From: a virus | IMG/VR virus record: IMGVR_UViG_3300032296_002423 | Location: 1 to 26,343 of that record | Length of the DNA: 26,343 nt | Reading direction: 5' to 3' (one strand) | Shown: positions 5,840-22,933 of the stretch, one piece after another | Numbering within the stretch: the stretch's first letter is position 1 | Layout of the letters: each line of letters opens with the position of its first letter | Notes under the pieces: generated by a model | Seen by the model: only the letters and a program-made list of their open reading frames with translations | The model's database searches: none | What the model was told of the DNA's origin: nothing | Program-made: the position numbers and the translations under genes

Positions 5840-6274
5840 CTATATTTCAGTAACCGCATTGAAATGGTCAAGCTCATCCTGGATTTTTTCAATCTTACTT
5901 TCCAATAATTTAATTTCCTCATTTCTTTTAACCAAAGAAATTTCAGAAGTTAATACCAACTCGCTTTCCATTCTATATCGGTCTTTATTTGATTTACCTT
6001 CGGTACAATCCATTTTTTTAAGAGCCGCAATTACTGATTTCATTTCTGCCATCCAGAAAATCTTTTCAAGTACCGGTGTGTTTGCGGTATGAATATTCGC
6101 TTTCAAATTTGATAGTTCACTTGTGTCCATCATTATTTGTTTCAATAGATCAAATGCACTATATGGTCTCTGGTTACCAACCTCAACAGAATTGTACTGT
6201 TGCATTAACTTGGTATTTTCTGCGATCTGTTTGATCAACTTGTTTTTTTGCTTTAAAGCTTGTTTAATTGTCAT
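5840..6274 (-). CDS. Helical protein, possibly DIP1984/septicolysin-like (144 aa)
   Basis: The protein is two long helical regions (residues 1-25 and 95-140) around a short middle containing SNLKANIHTANTP. The layout of N-terminal KQALKQKNKLIKQIAENTKL, a central 'L..I..TN' segment and a C-terminal heptad helix (LLESKIEKIQDELDHF) resembles the DIP1984 family, which has no established biochemical role. The assignment is by pattern memory only. It is a single-gene unit ending in TAG, with no overlap with neighbours. Confidence 0.6.
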   Translation of the reverse strand: MTIKQALKQKNKLIKQIAENTKLMQQYNSVEVGNQRPYSAFDLLKQIMMDTSELSNLKANIHTANTPVLEKIFWMAEMKSVIAALKKMDCTEGKSNKDRYRMESELVLTSEISLVKRNEEIKLLESKIEKIQDELDHFNAVTEI

Positions 6275-6339
6275 ATCTTTTTAATTTGTGTATGAAATAT
6301 TAGTAATACTATTTTTTATTGTCAAGTGGTTGAATGAAA

Positions 6340-6399
6340 AAATCCTAGTGGGATTCAAACCCACACCAAAAATGTGCTAACCAATTACACCATAGGATT
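6340..6399 (-). pseudogene. tRNA-like gene lacking the anticodon arm
   Basis: On the minus strand AATCCTA pairs with TAGGATT (7-bp acceptor stem), TG fills positions 8-9, and GTGT/GCAC form the D stem around AATTGGTTA, with A14 and GG18-19 conserved. GTGGG/CCCAC form the T stem around TTTGAAT. Between the D arm and T arm there are only nine bases (ATTTTTGGT), where about 23 are expected, so the anticodon stem-loop is missing. The T loop also has T where C56 is normally invariant. No CCA is encoded. The remaining arms look like a degraded glutamine-type tRNA (TTTTGG remnant), but identity cannot be proved. A T run directly follows the acceptor stem. Confidence 0.7.
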
Positions 6400-6501
6400 T
6401 TTATGGTTATTCTTAACTACCGAGATACTTTATCTTTATTGCATTTACGGCCGGTTATTAGACAAATGGGTTAAAGTACCAATCTCCCGGAGAGGGTGTT
6501 T
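6400..6501. other. Non-coding gap beside the tRNA relic
   Basis: This 102-base stretch has higher GC than its surroundings and fragments that look like parts of tRNA (for example AAATGGGTTAAAGTACC on the plus strand), but no foldable cloverleaf. I found no credible gene in it. Confidence 0.4.
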
Positions 6502-7110
6502 TTATATATTTTCTTTTTCTTCCACGTACTCAATAAATTTTTCCGTGTTTTTTATTATTTCCTGGGGTACAACATTTATGTACCAATCTTTAAGTTCTCT
6601 TATTGATGAAATTTTTGGTGAATCAAACGTATAAGTTTTATCATATCTATCTATTTCTGCATAATACGTATCTTGTAATGCCCAATCTCCCTTTGTATAC
6701 CAGTTAAATAAAACAGTACCAAAAGATTCATCACTATATCGTGGTTTAATAAATGGATCAAAAAACCCACTGAGTCCATATCTTAAAGGACCACCATCTC
6801 TATTTTTAATAATAGCAAGGTCGGCATTGTAATAGTTCTCGTCACTATAAATCTTTTCTAAATAAATCACATATGGATCTATCTCAAATCTATATGGTAG
6901 AGATTCGGCGGTTAATATGTAATACAATAAGATTTTTCTTAACTGATCAGGTGAAAAGTAATTACCATCCTCCTTTTCAAGTAAGTGATCCAAACTCTCA
7001 ATAGGTAACTTATACCTTTTAATTGTTTCAATTAAACCAACTTCATCAATTGATTTTTTGATCGTATTTTTTACTTTTTCGTATTTTGATTCGGTGATAA
7101 TGAATTTCAT
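6502..7110 (-). CDS. Unknown protein with N-terminal capsid-targeting-like tag (202 aa)
   Basis: The N-terminus MKFIITESKYEKVKNTIK matches the K-x-I-I-T-E-S-K-Y pattern shared with three other proteins in this window. A hydrophobic-x-Glu site (SIDE23-V) follows, as cut by T4-type prohead proteases. Residues 24-60 look like a small helical domain (GLIETIKRYKLPIESLDHLL). The rest is a mixed fold rich in Tyr and Asp (DESFGTVLFNWYTKGDWALQ) with no known motif. The start is preceded by AAAGTATTTATTAAAT, the same box found before the other tagged genes. I infer a virion-packaged protein of unknown activity. Confidence 0.75.
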   Translation of the reverse strand: MKFIITESKYEKVKNTIKKSIDEVGLIETIKRYKLPIESLDHLLEKEDGNYFSPDQLRKILLYYILTAESLPYRFEIDPYVIYLEKIYSDENYYNADLAIIKNRDGGPLRYGLSGFFDPFIKPRYSDESFGTVLFNWYTKGDWALQDTYYAEIDRYDKTYTFDSPKISSIRELKDWYINVVPQEIIKNTEKFIEYVEEKENI

Positions 7111-8115: not shown

Positions 8116-9084
8116 TTATTTTGTGAATCCAACAGTTGACGTTTTTTTAATTGTTGGTTTTATTTTTAATCCTTCAAGATTTAAAATTGTTTCCTCAAAG
8201 GTTCTACCCATAACAATAACTGAAATTAAAACTTCTTTCAAGTGGGATAATGACATTCCTTCAGTTCTTTTAACCCATTCTTCAATATTGTTTTGTTCAA
8301 TGTCTTCCTGGGTTAGTTTATTTAGAATGTAAGCTCTTCTAATTTCTTTGTTTGGTAATTCAACTTTATATCTTCTATCAAATCTTGATGGTCTATTTGT
8401 GATCCTTTCTTCTAATTTTTCCGGATAGTTTGTTGTTGCAATATACACAACACCCTCAATTTGTTTTACACCATCTAAGATATTAAGAAGTCTGGCTGTT
8501 TGGTATTTGTTTTCTGATGCAATTGAATCAATGTCCTCAAGTAAAACAACTAATGGTCTTTTTGGTTCAATTTTTCTAAAGGTCCCAATAAAAGATGTGA
8601 ATCTATCAACATCTTCTTCATCCTTAATATTAATTACAATCCCATCTCTTTTAATTAGATCCTGACTAATTAACTGGATGATACCAGATTTACCACATCC
8701 TGGTTCTCCATACATAAGAATACCTCTTTTGTGTATAAAATTGTATTCTTTATACTTATCAATTCTATTCCAGAAATTTTCAATATCTTCCAGAATATCC
8801 GTTATTTCCGGTGATGGTAAATGATAAAGTTCATCTGTTTTGAAGGGTTGTTTCTTTAAAGTGTGGGACCCTAAATTTGGGTTCCACCCAATTTCATATA
8901 TCCCAGCTGGTACTTTTGGTACTGTAATATATGCCGGTGCGTACTCATCATTTTTTAAATTACTCCAACAAGAAGGAACATCATAATCTTGTTTTTCTTC
9001 CTCATAATAATCTTCTTGTGTTGTTTCAAAATTTTTTAACATCTCAATTCTTTGTTTTATTTTTTGTTTAAACTCTTCAGACAT
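8116..9084 (-). CDS. AAA+ ATPase (322 aa)
   Basis: The ATG at 9082-9084 is chosen over an upstream TTG because it overlaps the end of the preceding gene by eight bases. Walker A is GEPGCGKS (126-133), Walker B is VVLLEDID (179-186), sensor 1 is ATTN (216-219), and the arginine-finger region is RPSRFDRR (231-238). Together these define a classical AAA module close to the BCS1/FtsH/proteasomal clade, with the Walker B 'EDID'. Residues 1-120 form an N-terminal substrate or adaptor domain that I do not recognise. Likely roles are protein remodelling or unfolding during infection. No protease domain is fused. Confidence 0.9.
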   Translation of the reverse strand: MSEEFKQKIKQRIEMLKNFETTQEDYYEEEKQDYDVPSCWSNLKNDEYAPAYITVPKVPAGIYEIGWNPNLGSHTLKKQPFKTDELYHLPSPEITDILEDIENFWNRIDKYKEYNFIHKRGILMYGEPGCGKSGIIQLISQDLIKRDGIVINIKDEEDVDRFTSFIGTFRKIEPKRPLVVLLEDIDSIASENKYQTARLLNILDGVKQIEGVVYIATTNYPEKLEERITNRPSRFDRRYKVELPNKEIRRAYILNKLTQEDIEQNNIEEWVKRTEGMSLSHLKEVLISVIVMGRTFEETILNLEGLKIKPTIKKTSTVGFTK

Positions 9085-10798: not shown

Positions 10799-10823
10799 GG
10801 TGACCCTATTAATGAGAGTCACC
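10799..10823 (-). terminator. Terminator overlapping the RNA ligase stop codon
   Basis: On the minus strand GGTGAC and GTCACC form a 6-bp stem that includes the last sense codons and the TAA. An AT-rich tail starting ATTTTATT follows. Confidence 0.6.
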
Positions 10824-11936
10824 AACATTGTTTTTTTCTCCGTATATCAAATAGTCCGGATTTATTACTTTACTTACTTTTTTACGATCACCACTTACGT
10901 GTTTAACAACGATTCCTTCGTGTGGTATTTTTGTTCCTTTTATGAAATTATTAAAAACAAATTGATCTTGTTTTTCTTTACTCCATAAACCTATAAATAA
11001 ACTCTCAACCTGTGGTAAATCAAGTAAGTTAAAATGTGATTTTTCAGCAAAAAAACTTTGATAAACACCATCAATCTCAATATCAAAACCAGCAAACTTA
11101 GTGTCTTTAAGTCCATAGTCATAGTTCTTTTGTATACCGGCACCGTAGATCTCACCATAAATAACAAAACCTTTTTCCAAGTCTTGTGGTTTGAAGTGTG
11201 TTTTAACGTGAGTCCAGAGTCTTGATTTTATCAAATATTTATCTGCAACATCTCGCCAAACATCCGTAGAGTAAAACCCTTGAGAGTCGGATCCTTTTTC
11301 AACATTGTGACTTCCGTATACATATTCAAAAGCTGACCATTTAAAACCAAAAAACATTTTAACACGATCCCAAAGTGATAGTTTATTTTTTCTAACAATA
11401 CCGTATCTAGCGTTTGTTCCGTGTAGTTTTCTTGTAATAACTATAGGATCGTCTTCTGTAAACATATCCGGAACATTTTTCTGGTTAGGAAATTTATAAT
11501 AGATATGGAAATTAGGGTTTTGGTGGTACCTAATCTTTCTTCCTCCAACTTCTAAAGGAATTGTTTTAACCGGTGGTTCGTATTTTTGAATACCCAAAAC
11601 GTCCATTAGATCGGTTCCAGGAACATTCTTACTACCCTTTCCTTTAAGGTATTTCATAGGTATGATCAAGCACTCACTATAAACACCTCTTAGTTTTACG
11701 GTTCTAACTCTTTGTCCTTTACGTAGGTACCCAGTAACACCCATATCATCGGATAGTTCTTTTGGTATAACAGCATCAGTTATTGCAACAATTACCGCGT
11801 CATTTTCATTATATTCACCTTTTTTAGTTATAGCACTCCAACCATTAACAACTACCAACTCAATGTTGTCAGCACCTTCTATTGGTTTTACACCATTAAT
11901 AACTCCAACGTAACAAACACTATTTAAATTTTCCAT
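10809..11936 (-). CDS. RNA ligase, DRB0094/DraRnl type (375 aa)
   Basis: The nucleotidyltransferase motifs are all present. Motif I is TRKLHGTN with adenylated Lys K170. Motif III is FVIYGEIYG (257-265), motif IV is HEGIVVK (339-345) and motif V is KVINPDYL. Residues 1-125 form the N-terminal OB-like domain typical of the Deinococcus DraRnl family (VCYVGVINGVKPIEGADNIE; TVKLRGVYSECLIIPMKYL). The family seals 3'-OH/5'-phosphate nicks in RNA, often on a bridging template, using ATP. Within this window it is joined by a kinase-like protein, a phosphoesterase, a cREC protein and a HAD, which suggests repair of host or phage RNA cut by defence nucleases. Confidence 0.92.
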   Translation of the reverse strand: MENLNSVCYVGVINGVKPIEGADNIELVVVNGWSAITKKGEYNENDAVIVAITDAVIPKELSDDMGVTGYLRKGQRVRTVKLRGVYSECLIIPMKYLKGKGSKNVPGTDLMDVLGIQKYEPPVKTIPLEVGGRKIRYHQNPNFHIYYKFPNQKNVPDMFTEDDPIVITRKLHGTNARYGIVRKNKLSLWDRVKMFFGFKWSAFEYVYGSHNVEKGSDSQGFYSTDVWRDVADKYLIKSRLWTHVKTHFKPQDLEKGFVIYGEIYGAGIQKNYDYGLKDTKFAGFDIEIDGVYQSFFAEKSHFNLLDLPQVESLFIGLWSKEKQDQFVFNNFIKGTKIPHEGIVVKHVSGDRKKVSKVINPDYLIYGEKNNVGDSH

Positions 11937-12321: not shown

Positions 12322-12744
12322 TTATATACTTAAATGTTTTTTTGCGTTTTCCAAAAATTTCTCAATATTTTCCTTACCTGCTGGATTTGCTGAATGGACA
12401 ATATAATCCGGTAATGGAACATTTTCATCAGCGCAATATTCAACAAGGAATTTTGCACAATCAAGTCCAGTTTTTTCCATACTACCAAATTTCATTATCA
12501 TTTCATCCTCGGACATATTCTCGTAATCCTCTGGTTTGAAATCGTAATGAAAATCCGCCAAATCGTGATCAAACGACACGAACTCTGGTACTCCATTTAC
12601 TTCTACATATGTAACGAACTCATCGTAGTTTCTTACAATGTCCCAATCATTCTCCCAATAAAACTTATTGAACTTGGTTGGTACCAAGTTGATTGCGTCC
12701 TTTGGTATGCGGATGTCGTCCAAGAACAATTTATTATTTTTCAT
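12322..12744 (-). CDS. cREC: cyclic-phosphate-processing receiver-domain protein (140 aa)
   Basis: The N-terminus KLFLDDIRIP carries the receiver-like acidic pair D9-D10. SFDHDLADF (57-65) and VHSANPAGKENI (116-127) are the other two signature blocks of the family that Burroughs and Aravind placed with RNA-repair systems, where it is proposed to process cyclic 2',3'-phosphate ends. It is full length, with all the acidic and His residues of the blocks retained. It lies next to the RNA ligase cluster, which fits a job of preparing RNA ends for sealing. The match is by motif pattern. Confidence 0.82.
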   Translation of the reverse strand: MKNNKLFLDDIRIPKDAINLVPTKFNKFYWENDWDIVRNYDEFVTYVEVNGVPEFVSFDHDLADFHYDFKPEDYENMSEDEMIMKFGSMEKTGLDCAKFLVEYCADENVPLPDYIVHSANPAGKENIEKFLENAKKHLSI

Positions 12745-14243: not shown

Positions 14244-15734
14244 TTAGATTCCGAGATACTTTTTTAGAGTACGTTCACCAATACTATATGAATTATCTCT
14301 AGCTTGATGACTCTTGCTTACTTGGTATCCACCTGATCTGTCTTTCCAAAAGTAATACCTTCCATCTGGAATTGAGTTATGATCAGATATTGTAACTTTA
14401 CCACCACTTGGTAGTTCTTTTTTATCTTCATCCTTGGTGTAATCCTTTTCTAATAAATTCAAACCATTCTTAGGTGTTTGTATATTTTTAAGTTCGTCAA
14501 TATAGTCTGTTTGTATTTTTCGTTTTCCGTATTTCTTTTCCATTAATTCCTGGTGAAGATCCCAGTTAAGAATTGATTCATTTGTTAGTTCTTTTTCATC
14601 CGGGATTAATGAATATATTTTAGAGATTCTTTTCATAAGATTCGTTGCAACATAATTAAATTTTTCACACTCATCTTTAAAAAAATCAATTTCTCTATCC
14701 TTATATTTAATAACATATTTTAGATATTTATTTCTAATTTTTTGTTTTCCTTCAGAAGCTTCTTTTCCCTGACCAATCAATCTAGCTAATGGACCAAACA
14801 TATTAAATACCATCTCTTCAGCGGTAAAGAAAAACTTATCAAACATTTCCTTTTTAGAGTTTGTTAAGTTAATGTATACAAGTTTTAATACCTCTTTAAT
14901 TTTTTCCTGATCAGACATCGTTTCAATCTCAGCTCCGGCATATTTAAGAAGTGCATCAACAGCGTCCATTTCTTTCTTTAATTGTGATATTAAATACTCA
15001 AATGAAAATTCTCTAATTTTTTTAAGTTCAACATAAGTAGGATCATTAACCATAAAATCGTAAAATTGATCTCTGGTTATACCCTTTTGTGTCATTCTTG
15101 ATGCAATTTCAGTTGGTCTTACTAAGTTTTCCATAACTTGGATAAAATAACTATACATCATAAAATTATTAAGTACCGGTACACCAAAATTTAACCCACT
15201 TGAAGCATATGCTTGATAGTCAGCGGTATTTCCCATTAATTCATATGGAATATTATGTCTATTGTACTTATGCATCAATTCGTGTGATAAAATTGATATG
15301 GTGTGAATTTCATCTTTTTTAAGATCGTTTATTAGATCATTGGTTGTCCAATTATCAGAAGTAATAAAATTTAAATGTAGATCAACAGTTTGATCTTTTT
15401 TATTTACCTGCATCATTATTCCCTCATCAAAATTAAAATGATTTCCCATTCCCATTGATGCTACTTGGGCTGGTCCGGTATATCCATCTAATTTAGTAAC
15501 TTCAACAGTAATGTTTAATTTGTCAAAAACAACATTTGCAACCTCAAGATTGGCGTCACCAACAAAAAATTCTGTTGTTTTGGATCCAGGTTTTATTTCT
15601 TTTATTTTATCAATTACAATTTCATATAATTTTTTACCAGAATCTAATATTTTTTCCGGAACACCAACAGCTTCATTCATTAATGACTTGGCTAGTAAAT
15701 TAAATTGTTTTTCAGTTAATATAATTTTTCCCAT
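14244..15734 (-). CDS. HExxH metalloprotease-like protein with N-terminal capsid-targeting-like tag (496 aa)
   Basis: The N-terminus MGKIILTEKQFNLLAKSLMN fits the shared I-I-(L)-T-E-x-Q-aromatic tag, followed by a hydrophobic-x-Glu site (LMNE21-A). The zinc-protease motif HELMH is at 151-155 within ISILSHELMHKYNRHN, preceded by a beta-sheet domain (60-135) that may present substrate. The remainder is a large helical domain, then a C-terminal small domain from about 445 (SGGKVTISDHNSIPDGRYYF). The third zinc ligand is not obvious. I infer a protease or peptidase packaged in the virion, perhaps for injection or for cell-envelope work. An ATATTTAT box lies four bases before the ATG. Confidence 0.78.
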   Translation of the reverse strand: MGKIILTEKQFNLLAKSLMNEAVGVPEKILDSGKKLYEIVIDKIKEIKPGSKTTEFFVGDANLEVANVVFDKLNITVEVTKLDGYTGPAQVASMGMGNHFNFDEGIMMQVNKKDQTVDLHLNFITSDNWTTNDLINDLKKDEIHTISILSHELMHKYNRHNIPYELMGNTADYQAYASSGLNFGVPVLNNFMMYSYFIQVMENLVRPTEIASRMTQKGITRDQFYDFMVNDPTYVELKKIREFSFEYLISQLKKEMDAVDALLKYAGAEIETMSDQEKIKEVLKLVYINLTNSKKEMFDKFFFTAEEMVFNMFGPLARLIGQGKEASEGKQKIRNKYLKYVIKYKDREIDFFKDECEKFNYVATNLMKRISKIYSLIPDEKELTNESILNWDLHQELMEKKYGKRKIQTDYIDELKNIQTPKNGLNLLEKDYTKDEDKKELPSGGKVTISDHNSIPDGRYYFWKDRSGGYQVSKSHQARDNSYSIGERTLKKYLGI

Positions 15735-15760: not shown

Positions 15761-16414
15761 TTAACCCACAACCCCAATTAGACCATCTAAATGGTGATCA
15801 CCATCCATATCGGAATAAATTTCTCTTTTATCCATTATTTTAATAATGTCTGAAATACTGTATGGATCCATTCCGTTTCCATCAACACCGACATCCATTT
15901 TTTTTCCGGAACCAAATTTACGGTTTTCAGGTAGGTGTACGTGTCCGTGAAGATGGATCACACCTTTATTTAATCCGTGCCAACTTTGGAGCGGGTAATG
16001 ACATAACACGAAATCTTTTCCTTCAATTTTTACTTCAAGGTAGTGTTGGATACTTAAAAATTTATCCTGGATATTGCCCCGGTTATTTTCTATGTGTGTG
16101 TCGTGGTTCCCAAGTATTAGATGAATGTTTTTACAGATCAGACGATCAAGAAAAAGTCCAATATTGTCAAACCCACCAAATGAAACATCCCCAAGCATAA
16201 TTAACGTATCATCCTGACCAACAGAATTATTAATACCATCAACAAGTCGTTGGTTCATTTCCTCTATGGTGTTAAAATCCCTTGTTGAGTCAACCGGTAT
16301 CTCACCATCTTGGGTTCGCCAGTTTGTTACTCCTCGTACAATATTTTTATGTCCAAAGTGAGTATCGGATGTAATCCACACTTTTCCAGTAGTCAGTATT
16401 TTTTTAAAACTCAT
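15761..16414 (-). CDS. Calcineurin-like metallophosphoesterase (217 aa)
   Basis: All five motif blocks are present. They are SDTHFGHKNI (D17, H19), GDVSFGG (D76), GNHD (102-105), CHYP (H139) and HGHVH (156-160). These bind the two metals of a calcineurin-like phosphoesterase. The family includes phage enzymes that remove phosphates from nucleic-acid ends or cleave phosphodiesters. Its start overlaps the stop of the kinase-like gene by four bases (ATGA). A kinase plus a phosphoesterase in one operon is the usual pairing of a two-part 3'/5' end-healing activity, as in Pnkp. The exact substrate is not deducible. Confidence 0.88.
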   Translation of the reverse strand: MSFKKILTTGKVWITSDTHFGHKNIVRGVTNWRTQDGEIPVDSTRDFNTIEEMNQRLVDGINNSVGQDDTLIMLGDVSFGGFDNIGLFLDRLICKNIHLILGNHDTHIENNRGNIQDKFLSIQHYLEVKIEGKDFVLCHYPLQSWHGLNKGVIHLHGHVHLPENRKFGSGKKMDVGVDGNGMDPYSISDIIKIMDKREIYSDMDGDHHLDGLIGVVG

Positions 16415-16803
16415 AACTTAACATTAAAACGATTACGCATTAATTCTAATTTATCCTCCGGAACTCCGTGAGTATTTGTTCCTCCGTGTCTATTTTCAAC
16501 AACAACAGTAAAAACGGTATAACCATATTTTTTTGCTAATTCAAAATATGGTTCCATCTCCCATTCCTGTGTGAAGGTGTTTGATACAACAATTTTATTC
16601 ATATTTAAAATCATACCTCCTTCCACACGGTTTTGACACCATTCGTGTGCTAATTTAATTTTAGAAACATCAAACTTATATTCCCCAGAAATTGGGTCAA
16701 TAAAAAACATATCAGCTTCGTAGTGTTGTCCACCCAAAGTTTTAGCAAATGTTGATTTTCCTGATCCCGGTATTCCTCTAACTATATATAATACTTTTTC
16801 CAT
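16411..16803 (-). CDS. P-loop kinase, polynucleotide-kinase-like (130 aa)
   Basis: Walker A is RGIPGSGKS (G10-S17). The segment around residue 73 (VVSNTFTQEWEMEPYFEL) and the end ENRHGGTNTHGVPEDKLELM resemble the 'N.HGVP' lid of N4BP2/YTH-type small kinases related to polynucleotide kinase. Such enzymes phosphorylate a 5'-OH end of RNA or DNA, or a small metabolite. The gene is coupled to the phosphoesterase and has a TATGTTTG promoter-like box four bases before its ATG. It fits the RNA-repair set, but kinase activity on RNA is inferred. Confidence 0.82.
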   Translation of the reverse strand: MEKVLYIVRGIPGSGKSTFAKTLGGQHYEADMFFIDPISGEYKFDVSKIKLAHEWCQNRVEGGMILNMNKIVVSNTFTQEWEMEPYFELAKKYGYTVFTVVVENRHGGTNTHGVPEDKLELMRNRFNVKL

Positions 16804-16850: not shown

Positions 16851-17864
16851 ATGAAAATTATTATCTCAGAGAGTCAATATTCACGACTTAAAAGTTATAA
16901 CACACCAAGTATTAATTTTTTAATTAATGAAACTGCCGGTAAAAAAGTAAAACCGCTATCTGAAGCTTGGTATAATTTACTTGGGGATATTGTTGGTGTC
17001 TTTGATCCTACCGGAATTGTAGATACAGCAAATGCAATATCTTACTGGAGTCAGGGTAGAAAAACATTTGCACTTCTTTCTTTGATTTCTGCTATTCCTG
17101 GTTTAGATTTTATTGCAAAACCTTTTATGGTTGGTGGTAAAATTGTTGGTGGTGCATCAAAACTACCTTTACTTGGGTGGCTTGTAAAAACATTATCAAA
17201 ATGGATTGGTAAAGTTCTTGATAAGATTGATAAATTACTTCTTTCAAGAATCCCAATAGTAAAAAATTTTGCAAACGGTATTAGAAGTTTTGTGACCGGT
17301 TTAAGGAATAATTCTGGGATTAACATTAACGAATCAAAAATTGGTAATTTATTAAAAGAAAATGTTGATTTTAATGAGTTATATAATCGTTTATTTCCTA
17401 AAATATATAAATCAGTATGTTTGAAGTACTCAGATGGTGATCGTGAAAGAGCTCAAGATTTTTGTCAGGATGGGTTTATTAAAGCCTACAATAAATTAGA
17501 TCAATTTAGGGGTGAGAATATTGATGGTTGGGTTGCTCAAATTGTTAGAAACAATATTTTAGATGAATTAAGAAAAGAAAATCGGAGATTTAAAACAACC
17601 AGTGCAGATTTTGGTAGACTTGATACCGGAGAAGAGGATTACGAAGATTTATTTATGGGAAGGTTTAGTGAAAAGGATATTCAAGATGCGATTTCTAATT
17701 TAAGTCCAAAATATCAAGATGTGTTCAGAGCTTATTATTTTGATGATATGACTCACGATGAAATTGCTAAAAAATATGGTTTAAGTCCTGGAACATCAAA
17801 ATCAAATCTTTTTAAGGCAAAAGCAAACGTTAAAAAATATTTAGAAAATTTAAAGGAGACCTAA
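16851..17864 (+). CDS. Sigma factor (ECF-like) fused to a tagged hydrophobic N-terminal domain (337 aa)
   Basis: Residues 173-245 are sigma region 2: FNELYNRLFPKIYKSVCLKY, then DFCQDGFIKAYNKL and WVAQIVRNNILDEL. Residues 275-332 are region 4: LSPKYQDVFRAYYFDDMTHD and EIAKKYGLSPGTSKSNLFKA, with a helix-turn-helix. Regions 1 and 3 are absent, as in ECF sigmas. The N-terminus MKIIISESQYSRL matches the tag of three other window proteins and is followed by a LINE27-T site. Residues 36-155 are a Gly/hydrophobic domain (IVGVFDPTGIVDTANAIS, SLISAIPGLDFIAKP) that recalls pre-toxin-type domains. A second tag-like segment (INESKIGNLLKE170) sits exactly at the domain boundary. I infer a virion-packaged sigma factor. 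Confidence 0.85.
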   Translation: MKIIISESQYSRLKSYNTPSINFLINETAGKKVKPLSEAWYNLLGDIVGVFDPTGIVDTANAISYWSQGRKTFALLSLISAIPGLDFIAKPFMVGGKIVGGASKLPLLGWLVKTLSKWIGKVLDKIDKLLLSRIPIVKNFANGIRSFVTGLRNNSGININESKIGNLLKENVDFNELYNRLFPKIYKSVCLKYSDGDRERAQDFCQDGFIKAYNKLDQFRGENIDGWVAQIVRNNILDELRKENRRFKTTSADFGRLDTGEEDYEDLFMGRFSEKDIQDAISNLSPKYQDVFRAYYFDDMTHDEIAKKYGLSPGTSKSNLFKAKANVKKYLENLKET

Positions 17865-21391: not shown

Positions 21392-22933
21392 TTAATTAAT
21401 TTTCATAACAATGTAGTCGGTGCCATTAATCTCAATAGTATCGTAAGTCCCATCATAACCATTAAGTGCTTCACCATAATCGGCATTCCTTACTAAATCG
21501 TCTAACATTTCTCCTTTATCTATAAAATATTGAAGATCATAACCATAATCTCTAAGACGACTAACCGGATCTCTTCTAATGTCGTATAGTTCATTATCAA
21601 CCGCGTTTTCTATTTCATCTACATTTGGTTCTCCGTCTGGGTCTTCTTGGATACTCTCTATCTCTGACATTAAATCACTTATTTCGTCGTCAATTTCGTC
21701 TTTTCTTGATTCATTACCGTCTTCGTGTATTTCGTCTTCATCATCGTTGTAATCTATAAGATTTGTGTGAGATCCATTTTGATATATTTCCCAGGTTCCA
21801 GTTCCGTGAACATTATCAGTACTCCAATGAACTAAAAAGAAATTATCCATATAATCTTTGAACTTATAATTTTTCATATCACTATTTTCAAGTTCAATAA
21901 GTGGTGTTCTAGCTCCTCTTTCAATTAAAAGTCTTTCAAGTTCAAGTCCTTTTATTTCATTTTCTAATTTTACAATCTCTTCTTCTTGTGATCTACTTAA
22001 TCCTTTTGATACACCATAACTTTCTGGGTCGTCATATATACTTTCTCTTATACCATCTTCAAAATATTCAGCAACCTGATCACCATCAATATAATTTTCC
22101 ATAAAATCATTACTAAAATAGTGTTGTGGTTGGTCAACCATATCTCCATAATACTGTTCAATTGAGTCGTCAGCCATTTGGTATGTTCCAACAGCAAATT
22201 CAAAACCTTCTTCTAATGAAATAAATCGTTTCATTTCATAATGATACCCATCATAAAAAAGATCATACACATCAACTTTTCCGGACATAATTTCATCCCA
22301 CTCATCTTGTAGTTCATCTATTTGTTCCTGGATTTGATCATACATTTCATCATAATCTTCTTCCTCGGCACTTAAATTTTCTTGTTGGTTTTCTAAATCA
22401 GATATTTGAATTTTAAGTTCATCGGCTCTTTCTTTATCATCTTCAGCAAGACCACTAAGTAATCCTTCATTCATTGCATAAGTAAAAACAGCATTTGCCA
22501 TTTCTCCTTCTATATTGGTGTCATCTATATCCCAAGCGTTTTCTTTTCTTAATTCATCTTGTGCATTAAGTTTTTTTCTGAGCTCTCTAGCGGCAACCAC
22601 ACGTTCAAAAGGTGTTTGCCAGTATCTTGGGTGCCCAGTTACTTCAACATCATCTAATGATTTTATATTTGTATATGAAACATCAAGATTTCCTTCAACT
22701 TTTATTGGTCCAAGATCTGTGATTCTTTTGTCATTTTGTAAATCAAGACCCCCAGTAACAACAAGTTTTTTTCCTTTAAATCTTGGGAGTTTTAATATAC
22801 CTTGAGCTTGACCTGCAACTTTTTTAAGTAGGTCTTTATATTCTTCTGGAGAAATTCTTACTTCTTCTTCCTCCTCTTTTAATAATCTTTTAATATATGA
22901 TACTAATTGTGTCTCTGTTAATAATTTTTTCAT
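21392..22933 (-). CDS. Highly acidic protein with capsid-targeting-like tag, beta-repeat and coiled coils (513 aa)
   Basis: The N-terminus MKKLLTETQLVSYIKRLLKE fits the shared tag with a LLKE20-E site. Residues 50-100 carry a short leucine-rich-like beta repeat (LVVTGGLDLQN, GNLDVSYTNIKSLDDV). Two heptad-rich helices follow, near 170-215 (RADELKIQISDLENQQENLS) and 320-345. Much of the rest is extremely rich in Asp and Glu (DYNDDEDEIHEDG). I infer a virion-internal protein. The acidity could aid co-packaging with basic proteins or mimic DNA. A GTATTTAT box lies six bases before the ATG. Confidence 0.75.
   Translation of the reverse strand: MKKLLTETQLVSYIKRLLKEEEEEVRISPEEYKDLLKKVAGQAQGILKLPRFKGKKLVVTGGLDLQNDKRITDLGPIKVEGNLDVSYTNIKSLDDVEVTGHPRYWQTPFERVVAARELRKKLNAQDELRKENAWDIDDTNIEGEMANAVFTYAMNEGLLSGLAEDDKERADELKIQISDLENQQENLSAEEEDYDEMYDQIQEQIDELQDEWDEIMSGKVDVYDLFYDGYHYEMKRFISLEEGFEFAVGTYQMADDSIEQYYGDMVDQPQHYFSNDFMENYIDGDQVAEYFEDGIRESIYDDPESYGVSKGLSRSQEEEIVKLENEIKGLELERLLIERGARTPLIELENSDMKNYKFKDYMDNFFLVHWSTDNVHGTGTWEIYQNGSHTNLIDYNDDEDEIHEDGNESRKDEIDDEISDLMSEIESIQEDPDGEPNVDEIENAVDNELYDIRRDPVSRLRDYGYDLQYFIDKGEMLDDLVRNADYGEALNGYDGTYDTIEINGTDYIVMKIN

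Follow-up and report, generated by a model that had tools for sequence, protein, structure and literature searches.

Does a tRNA gene without an anticodon arm mark a damaged gene, or an RNA that is kept for something other than decoding? The question arises at positions 6340-6399 of a viral genome fragment of 26,343 nucleotides (IMG/VR record IMGVR_UViG_3300032296_002423), analyzed over its whole length and called the window below. An earlier note, made from the sequence alone, had described a tRNA gene with perfect acceptor, D and T stems, with U8, A14 and GG18-19 kept, and with only nine bases between the D and T arms. All of these points were borne out on the minus strand, which reads 5'-AATCCTA TG GTGT AATTGGTTA GCAC ATTTTTGGT GTGGG TTTGAAT CCCAC TAGGATT T. 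The acceptor stem pairs at 7 of 7 positions, the D stem at 4 of 4 (one G-U) and the T stem at 5 of 5, and U8, A14, A15, G18 and G19 are retained. We ran the covariance-model check that the note had proposed, and the Rfam tRNA model RF00005 scored this tRNA fold above threshold, with all three stems present (43.1 bits, where the gathering score is 29; E = 3e-6 across the window). The alignment spans the first to the last model position, and its sole gap is the anticodon arm. ARAGORN called no tRNA at 6340-6399.

In place of the arm, the nine-base linker ATTTTTGGT (6365-6373, minus strand) joins the D and T stems. Because its final GGU aligns to variable-loop positions 45, 46 and 48, the Levitt pair A15-U48 is kept. 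The note was right that position 56 is T rather than C, but this change is less special than it appeared, since at least 5 of 64 typed T loops from ordinary tRNAs of these phages also read TTTGA. A tRNA fragment at an att site, which would hold one gene end only, was excluded because neither acceptor strand and neither side arm is missing. The absence of an anticodon excludes decoding by this tRNA body.

We searched viral contigs for relatives using two unlike patterns. A pattern with the D arm and T loop close together, allowing C or T at position 56, returned seven other contigs, all with T56. A second pattern, built from the conserved upstream stretch only and free of tRNA sequence, returned the same contigs and seven more. 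Further scans brought the total to 16 contigs, consisting of the window and 15 other IMG/VR contigs, and the upstream block and the armless body are both present in every one. Since scans with the 5' domain only give the same contigs, each with an armless body, loss of the arm is not an artifact of the search pattern. No readable anticodon arm was present in any of the 16, where the D-to-T spacing is 9-10 nt; looking among related phages for the intact version, as the note had suggested, thus found only armless members in this family. Rfam tRNA scores were 34.8-45.4 bits among the relatives listed.

A covariance model of the RNA found one strong copy per record, and weak second matches in L010 and L011 were chance-like. 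Across 50,697 phage records there was no convincing match; most matches were to the D-arm stretch in ordinary tRNA genes, many of them annotated as tRNA-Gln. The sole match in bacterial and archaeal species genomes (L016) was attributed to chance. Among candidates from a looser armless scan, L018 proved to be a tmRNA, a full tRNA lies within L021, and no such fold is present at the match in L017, L019 or L023.

These comparisons redefined the extent of the feature. The span 6340-6399 stands as the tRNA body, but it is only the 3' third of a non-coding RNA of ~165 nt with approximate ends at 6336 and 6500 (minus strand), a block conserved in the 16 contigs despite differing flanking genes. In the window, this RNA lies between a 202-amino acid open reading frame (ORF) at 6502-7110 and a 144-amino acid ORF at 5840-6274. 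Its order from 5' to 3' is promoter, pseudoknot domain, hairpin and tRNA body.

The pseudoknot domain opens with helix A (GGG/CCC), in which 6486-6489 pair with 6467-6470 (span 6467-6489, minus strand; columns 12-15/31-34 of alignment A1). In the window, a C.A mismatch takes the place of its fourth pair, and the outer pair is A-U, U-A or C-G among members. Helix B has eight pairs between 6473-6480 and 6424-6431 (span 6424-6480, minus strand; columns 21-28/70-77) and crosses helix A in H-type order, with two pairs changed on both sides. A possible helix C joins GCCG at 6448-6451 to CGGU at 6419-6422 (span 6419-6451, minus strand; columns 50-53/79-82); it is invariant among members and therefore offers no covariation evidence. 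The small hairpin GUUA-AGAA-UAAC follows at 6406-6417 (minus strand; columns 84-87/92-95), again with two pairs changed on both sides. An anticodon-like stretch in the 5' domain, UUGUCUAAU, was dropped as a candidate because no stem supports it.

Within the tRNA body, the D arm with its 4-bp stem (6374-6390, minus strand) is the same in all members of alignment A1 except for C25 to T in some, and it is also present in members recovered via the 5' domain only. The linker ends in an invariant GGU, and the T arm, GTGGG TTTGAAT CCCAC with U56, occupies 6348-6364 (minus strand). The 3' strand of the closing stem and a U run (6336-6347, minus strand) pair with the acceptor 5' strand and an A-rich leader (6393-6405) in a terminator-like arrangement. 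Some pairs of this closing stem, including its A/U extension, are changed on both sides.

We then quantified the support for this fold. Across 15 distinct sequences, 96.9% of cells pair at the 41 proposed pairs. Changes on both sides were found in 13 of the 41, against at most 4 in slid-partner controls that remove the effect of relatedness only partly, and they are spread over several helices and several branches. By comparison, U8, A14, A15-U48, G18, G19 and the D arm are near-invariant in alignment A1. The window therefore almost certainly holds one member of a family of ~165-nt RNAs, composed of a pseudoknot, a hairpin and an armless tRNA body, that is maintained by selection. The suggestion in the earlier note that the RNA is kept as a tRNA-like molecule was supported in this respect by the same element in 16 contigs, by covarying stems and by constant core nucleotides.

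Armless tRNAs were not confined to this family. A scan of viral contigs with a different, generic pattern of D arm and T loop gave at least 120 matching stretches. At least 52 distinct stretches of 54-61 nt passed an intact-stem filter (at least 6 of 7 acceptor, 4 of 5 T and 3 of 4 D pairs), whereas a shifted control predicts about 2. Among the matches listed, positions that the pattern left unfixed were those of a tRNA: U8 in 52 of 52, A14 in 52 of 52, and a matched 15-48 pair in 48 of 52 (32 G-C, 16 A-U and 4 other). Retention of these unfixed positions in at least 52 armless examples is strong evidence for a folded tRNA core. CCA is encoded in 4 and G3-U70 present in 10 of the 52 matches listed, counts from which nothing can be inferred because the pattern favors alanine-like tRNAs. 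The generic pattern had no match in 380 bacterial genomes, which are small and give a low expected number.

The armless loci in unrelated phages (among L040-L159) include L104:7165-7222, L133:7793-7849, L150 and L157, and the two genes that we checked (L104 and L157) lie just upstream of a terminase small-subunit gene. Cultured phages also carry them. Polaribacter phage Danklef_1 has one (L160:1495-1552) annotated as 'tRNA-OTHER, Undet_(NNN)', for which we found no discussion in passages of the paper describing the phage, and Lactobacillus phage LBR48 has an unannotated one (L164, about 397-452). Streptococcus suis phage Javan565 carries an intact tRNA with flanks similar to those around the armless L104 form, which makes deletion of the arm from a working tRNA a plausible origin. 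In Streptococcus phage Javan570 (L163, about 345-430), the S. suis phage tRNA retains its acceptor and T arm, but different sequence fills its interior. Taken together, the conserved family and the armless tRNAs of many unrelated phages imply that absence of the arm is maintained and does not reflect damage.

Two side observations concern these searches. In 8 of 53 cases (L049, L079, L084, L089, L098, L106, L118 and L139), the armless tRNA is preceded by a small ORF, basic and rich in cysteine, that terminates 4-11 nt upstream of it, compared with 4% of ORFs having such a tail in the same contigs. Its endings resemble ...CCxxYGTCxCS or ...CSYxGTCxxPCNGDC, and neither Pfam nor PHROG has a family that it matches with a meaningful score. 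Separately, L020 at ~8990-9070 (minus strand) is tRNA-like with its D and T arms close together and has ~20 extra bases, possibly an anticodon-like hairpin, between the acceptor and the D arm; it is perhaps a rearranged tRNA.

The surroundings of the window's family bear on how the RNA might be expressed. The flanking genes fall into three settings, in all of which the RNA is intergenic and shares the strand of its neighbors: that of the window (shared with L003 and L007), that of L006 and L012, with a DnaJ-zinc-finger-like gene downstream, and that of L005 and L008. No neighboring gene is common to all contexts. The neighboring 202-amino acid ORF had no relatives in a protein search, and neither did two flanking genes when searched against the phage collection. 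Judging from gene content, the carriers are tailed phages, and one long record (L012, 112 kb) has predicted contractile-tail genes for a tail sheath and baseplate wedge, together with DnaB-like helicase, UvsX-like recombinase and sigma factor genes. Ordinary tRNAs are found in several family contigs, and a GOLLD RNA lies upstream of the element in four loci (L004, L012, L013 and L014).

In most members, an exact TATTTAT directly precedes the RNA, and the window has a poor match, the weak late-promoter-like TATATAAA at 6501-6508 (minus strand), which overlaps the upstream stop codon. TATTTAT is ~10-fold enriched upstream of genes in the family's contigs, where its distance to the ATG is usually 11-12 or 20-22 nt, and we take this box to resemble the late promoter of phage T4. 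Very commonly, the box is placed just 11-12 nt before an ATG, where it would yield late mRNAs with little or no leader. In L005 and L008, a hairpin resembling an intrinsic terminator, with a T run, precedes the promoter.

Other parts of the window merit brief mention. The minus-strand regions 10809-11936, 12322-12744 and 15761-16803 are likely an RNA-repair set, with a Naegleria-related RNA ligase, a cyclic-phosphate-processing receiver domain protein, a phosphoesterase and a kinase-like ATPase. Four otherwise different proteins (6502-7110, 14244-15734 and 21392-22933 on the minus strand and 16851-17864 on the plus strand) have a short N-terminal motif like MKxIITExQ in common. The motif also occurs in L005 and is perhaps a cleaved targeting peptide.

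We next considered where the RNA ends. Pairing between its A-rich leader and U-rich trailer continues past the acceptor stem in the window's family, at a mean of 4.3 of 5 positions, compared with 1.75 of 5, the chance level, for 53 other armless tRNAs. In the window itself, CCA is not encoded, leader and trailer pair beyond position 1, and a terminator-like site at 6364-6348 is followed by a U run. This pattern suggests that the family's RNA is a primary transcript ending at the U run rather than a tRNA released by processing. Because the acceptor stem extends into a terminator-like A/U stem, the family is unlikely to have the usual processed end of a tRNA.

From these features, we tentatively favor, at somewhat below even odds, a trans-acting mechanism late in infection. 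A phage late promoter would drive the RNA as a separate transcript, whose end would fall at the U run behind the extended acceptor stem. With such an end, the tRNA body would be a fixed 3' domain, uncharged and with no role in decoding. The RNA would then act in trans by offering its folded tRNA core and its elbow to a protein, of host or phage origin, that ordinarily grips tRNA bodies. This protein would be recruited or occupied, while the pseudoknot domain would supply the specific function. RNase P and RNase Z recognize the acceptor-T stack and elbow, and not the anticodon (PMC11693755). Cas12a3 is a further enzyme that grips the tRNA body or tail. An elbow with U56 is still plausible (G19-U56), because the equivalent C41U change in mascRNA had a minor effect and a G-U pair can form (PMC11693755). 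Points against this mechanism are the poor promoter match in the window, the search for a partner protein, which turned up neither a TROVE/Ro gene in 13 fragmentary records nor a constant neighboring gene, and the extended stem, which can equally be read as a mere terminator.

The main rival to a late trans-acting RNA is a processing signal in the style of mascRNA, which we regard as possible but on the unlikely side. The armless tRNA would recruit RNase P (and RNase Z), the upstream RNA would gain a defined 3' end, and the 60-mer would be a by-product. That both enzymes ignore the anticodon is in keeping with this explanation, as are the S. suis phage loci, where intact (Javan565), armless (L104) and interior-changed (Javan570) forms occur as if only the acceptor and T arm matter there. 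In the other armless tRNAs, leader and trailer are unpaired, as in tRNAs that can be processed, and a stop codon immediately precedes some of them. However, leader and trailer pair past position 1 in the window's family, and such pairing normally hinders RNase P. Read in the 7-bp register, 7 of 15 members also have a mismatch at the second acceptor pair, which speaks against the same explanation.

It is also unlikely that the 3' domain is a mere terminator and stability cap derived from an old tRNA gene, with all function in the pseudoknot domain. The terminator-like site at 6364-6348 with its U run and the covarying A/U extension of the closing stem fit this proposal, but a terminator has no need for an invariant D arm, U8, A14, A15-U48 and T loop that stay near-constant while the stems change. 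A decoy or sponge for a defense enzyme that attacks tRNAs by binding the tail, acceptor or core is improbable. These phages do encode many ordinary tRNAs, yet a free CCA end is not expected in the window's family. The more specific version in the earlier note, a decoy for anticodon-cutting enzymes beside RNA-repair genes, is not supported, since there is no anticodon and the window's RNA-ligase OB domain (PF21189) was found in only 2 of the 15 other records, which are incomplete. Finally, that a clean deletion left a decaying relic, the other reading offered by the note, is scarcely credible even with intact and armless versions of one tRNA in S. suis phages, and is refuted for the window's family by 16 of 16 members being armless with compensating stem changes, an unvaried core and a body embedded in a larger conserved RNA.

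When placed in the context of known systems, the element resembles several and coincides with none. It shares with canonical phage tRNA genes (RF00005) the acceptor, D and T stems, U8, A14, the Levitt pair, the elbow and a score above threshold, but it lacks the anticodon arm and cannot decode, is fused to an upstream structured RNA, and has an acceptor that runs into a terminator-like stem. The mascRNA and menRNA of MALAT1 and MEN-beta are likewise non-decoding tRNA mimics of ~60 nt at the 3' end of a longer non-coding RNA, with the elbow kept (PMC11693755). In contrast, mascRNA keeps the equivalent of the anticodon arm and has a reduced D arm, whereas the phage element has an intact D arm and no anticodon arm (PMC11693755). 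For the phage element, the paired leader and trailer argue against RNase P cleavage at the tRNA 5' end.

In tmRNA, a tRNA-like domain without an anticodon arm is linked to pseudoknots. The phage element likewise joins an armless tRNA-like domain with a pseudoknot, but its pseudoknot precedes the body instead of being inserted into it, its D stem is a proper 4 bp, and the window has no G3-U70. Neither ARAGORN nor Rfam (RF00023) called a tmRNA at the element, and no tag reading frame was found there. GOLLD and ROOL are also structured phage RNAs, of large size, with pseudoknots near tRNA genes (PMC12286853), but the element is far smaller and carries its own tRNA-like domain. The Rfam GOLLD and ROOL models had no match at the element, while GOLLD matched elsewhere in some of the same contigs. 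A bacterial Y RNA gained no support: a TROVE gene for the Ro/Rsr partner was found in 0 of 13 records, all fragments, and only the tRNA model scored above threshold at the element. Truncated mitochondrial tRNAs of mites, nematodes and spiders have also lost an arm, but there the D and/or T arm is lost and the anticodon kept (PMC2797822, PMC7730189, PMC6706885). The phage RNAs are the reverse, having kept the body and lost the anticodon arm.

In the open-access literature, we found no description of phage tRNAs without an anticodon arm, and prior work may exist elsewhere. Automatic annotation hides the class, as ARAGORN misses the element of the window and the gene of Danklef_1 is labeled 'Undet NNN'. 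Given that cultured phages carry examples, the class is directly testable. In these phages, the tRNA body is retained while its codon-reading part is gone, and one family has the body built into a larger conserved RNA. This points to a use of the tRNA shape during infection that is unrelated to decoding. It is plausible, albeit short of probable, that phages repeatedly evolve and keep armless tRNA genes for the sake of the tRNA body, and that in the branch represented by the window this body has become the 3' domain of a late pseudoknot RNA that would capture a tRNA-binding factor.
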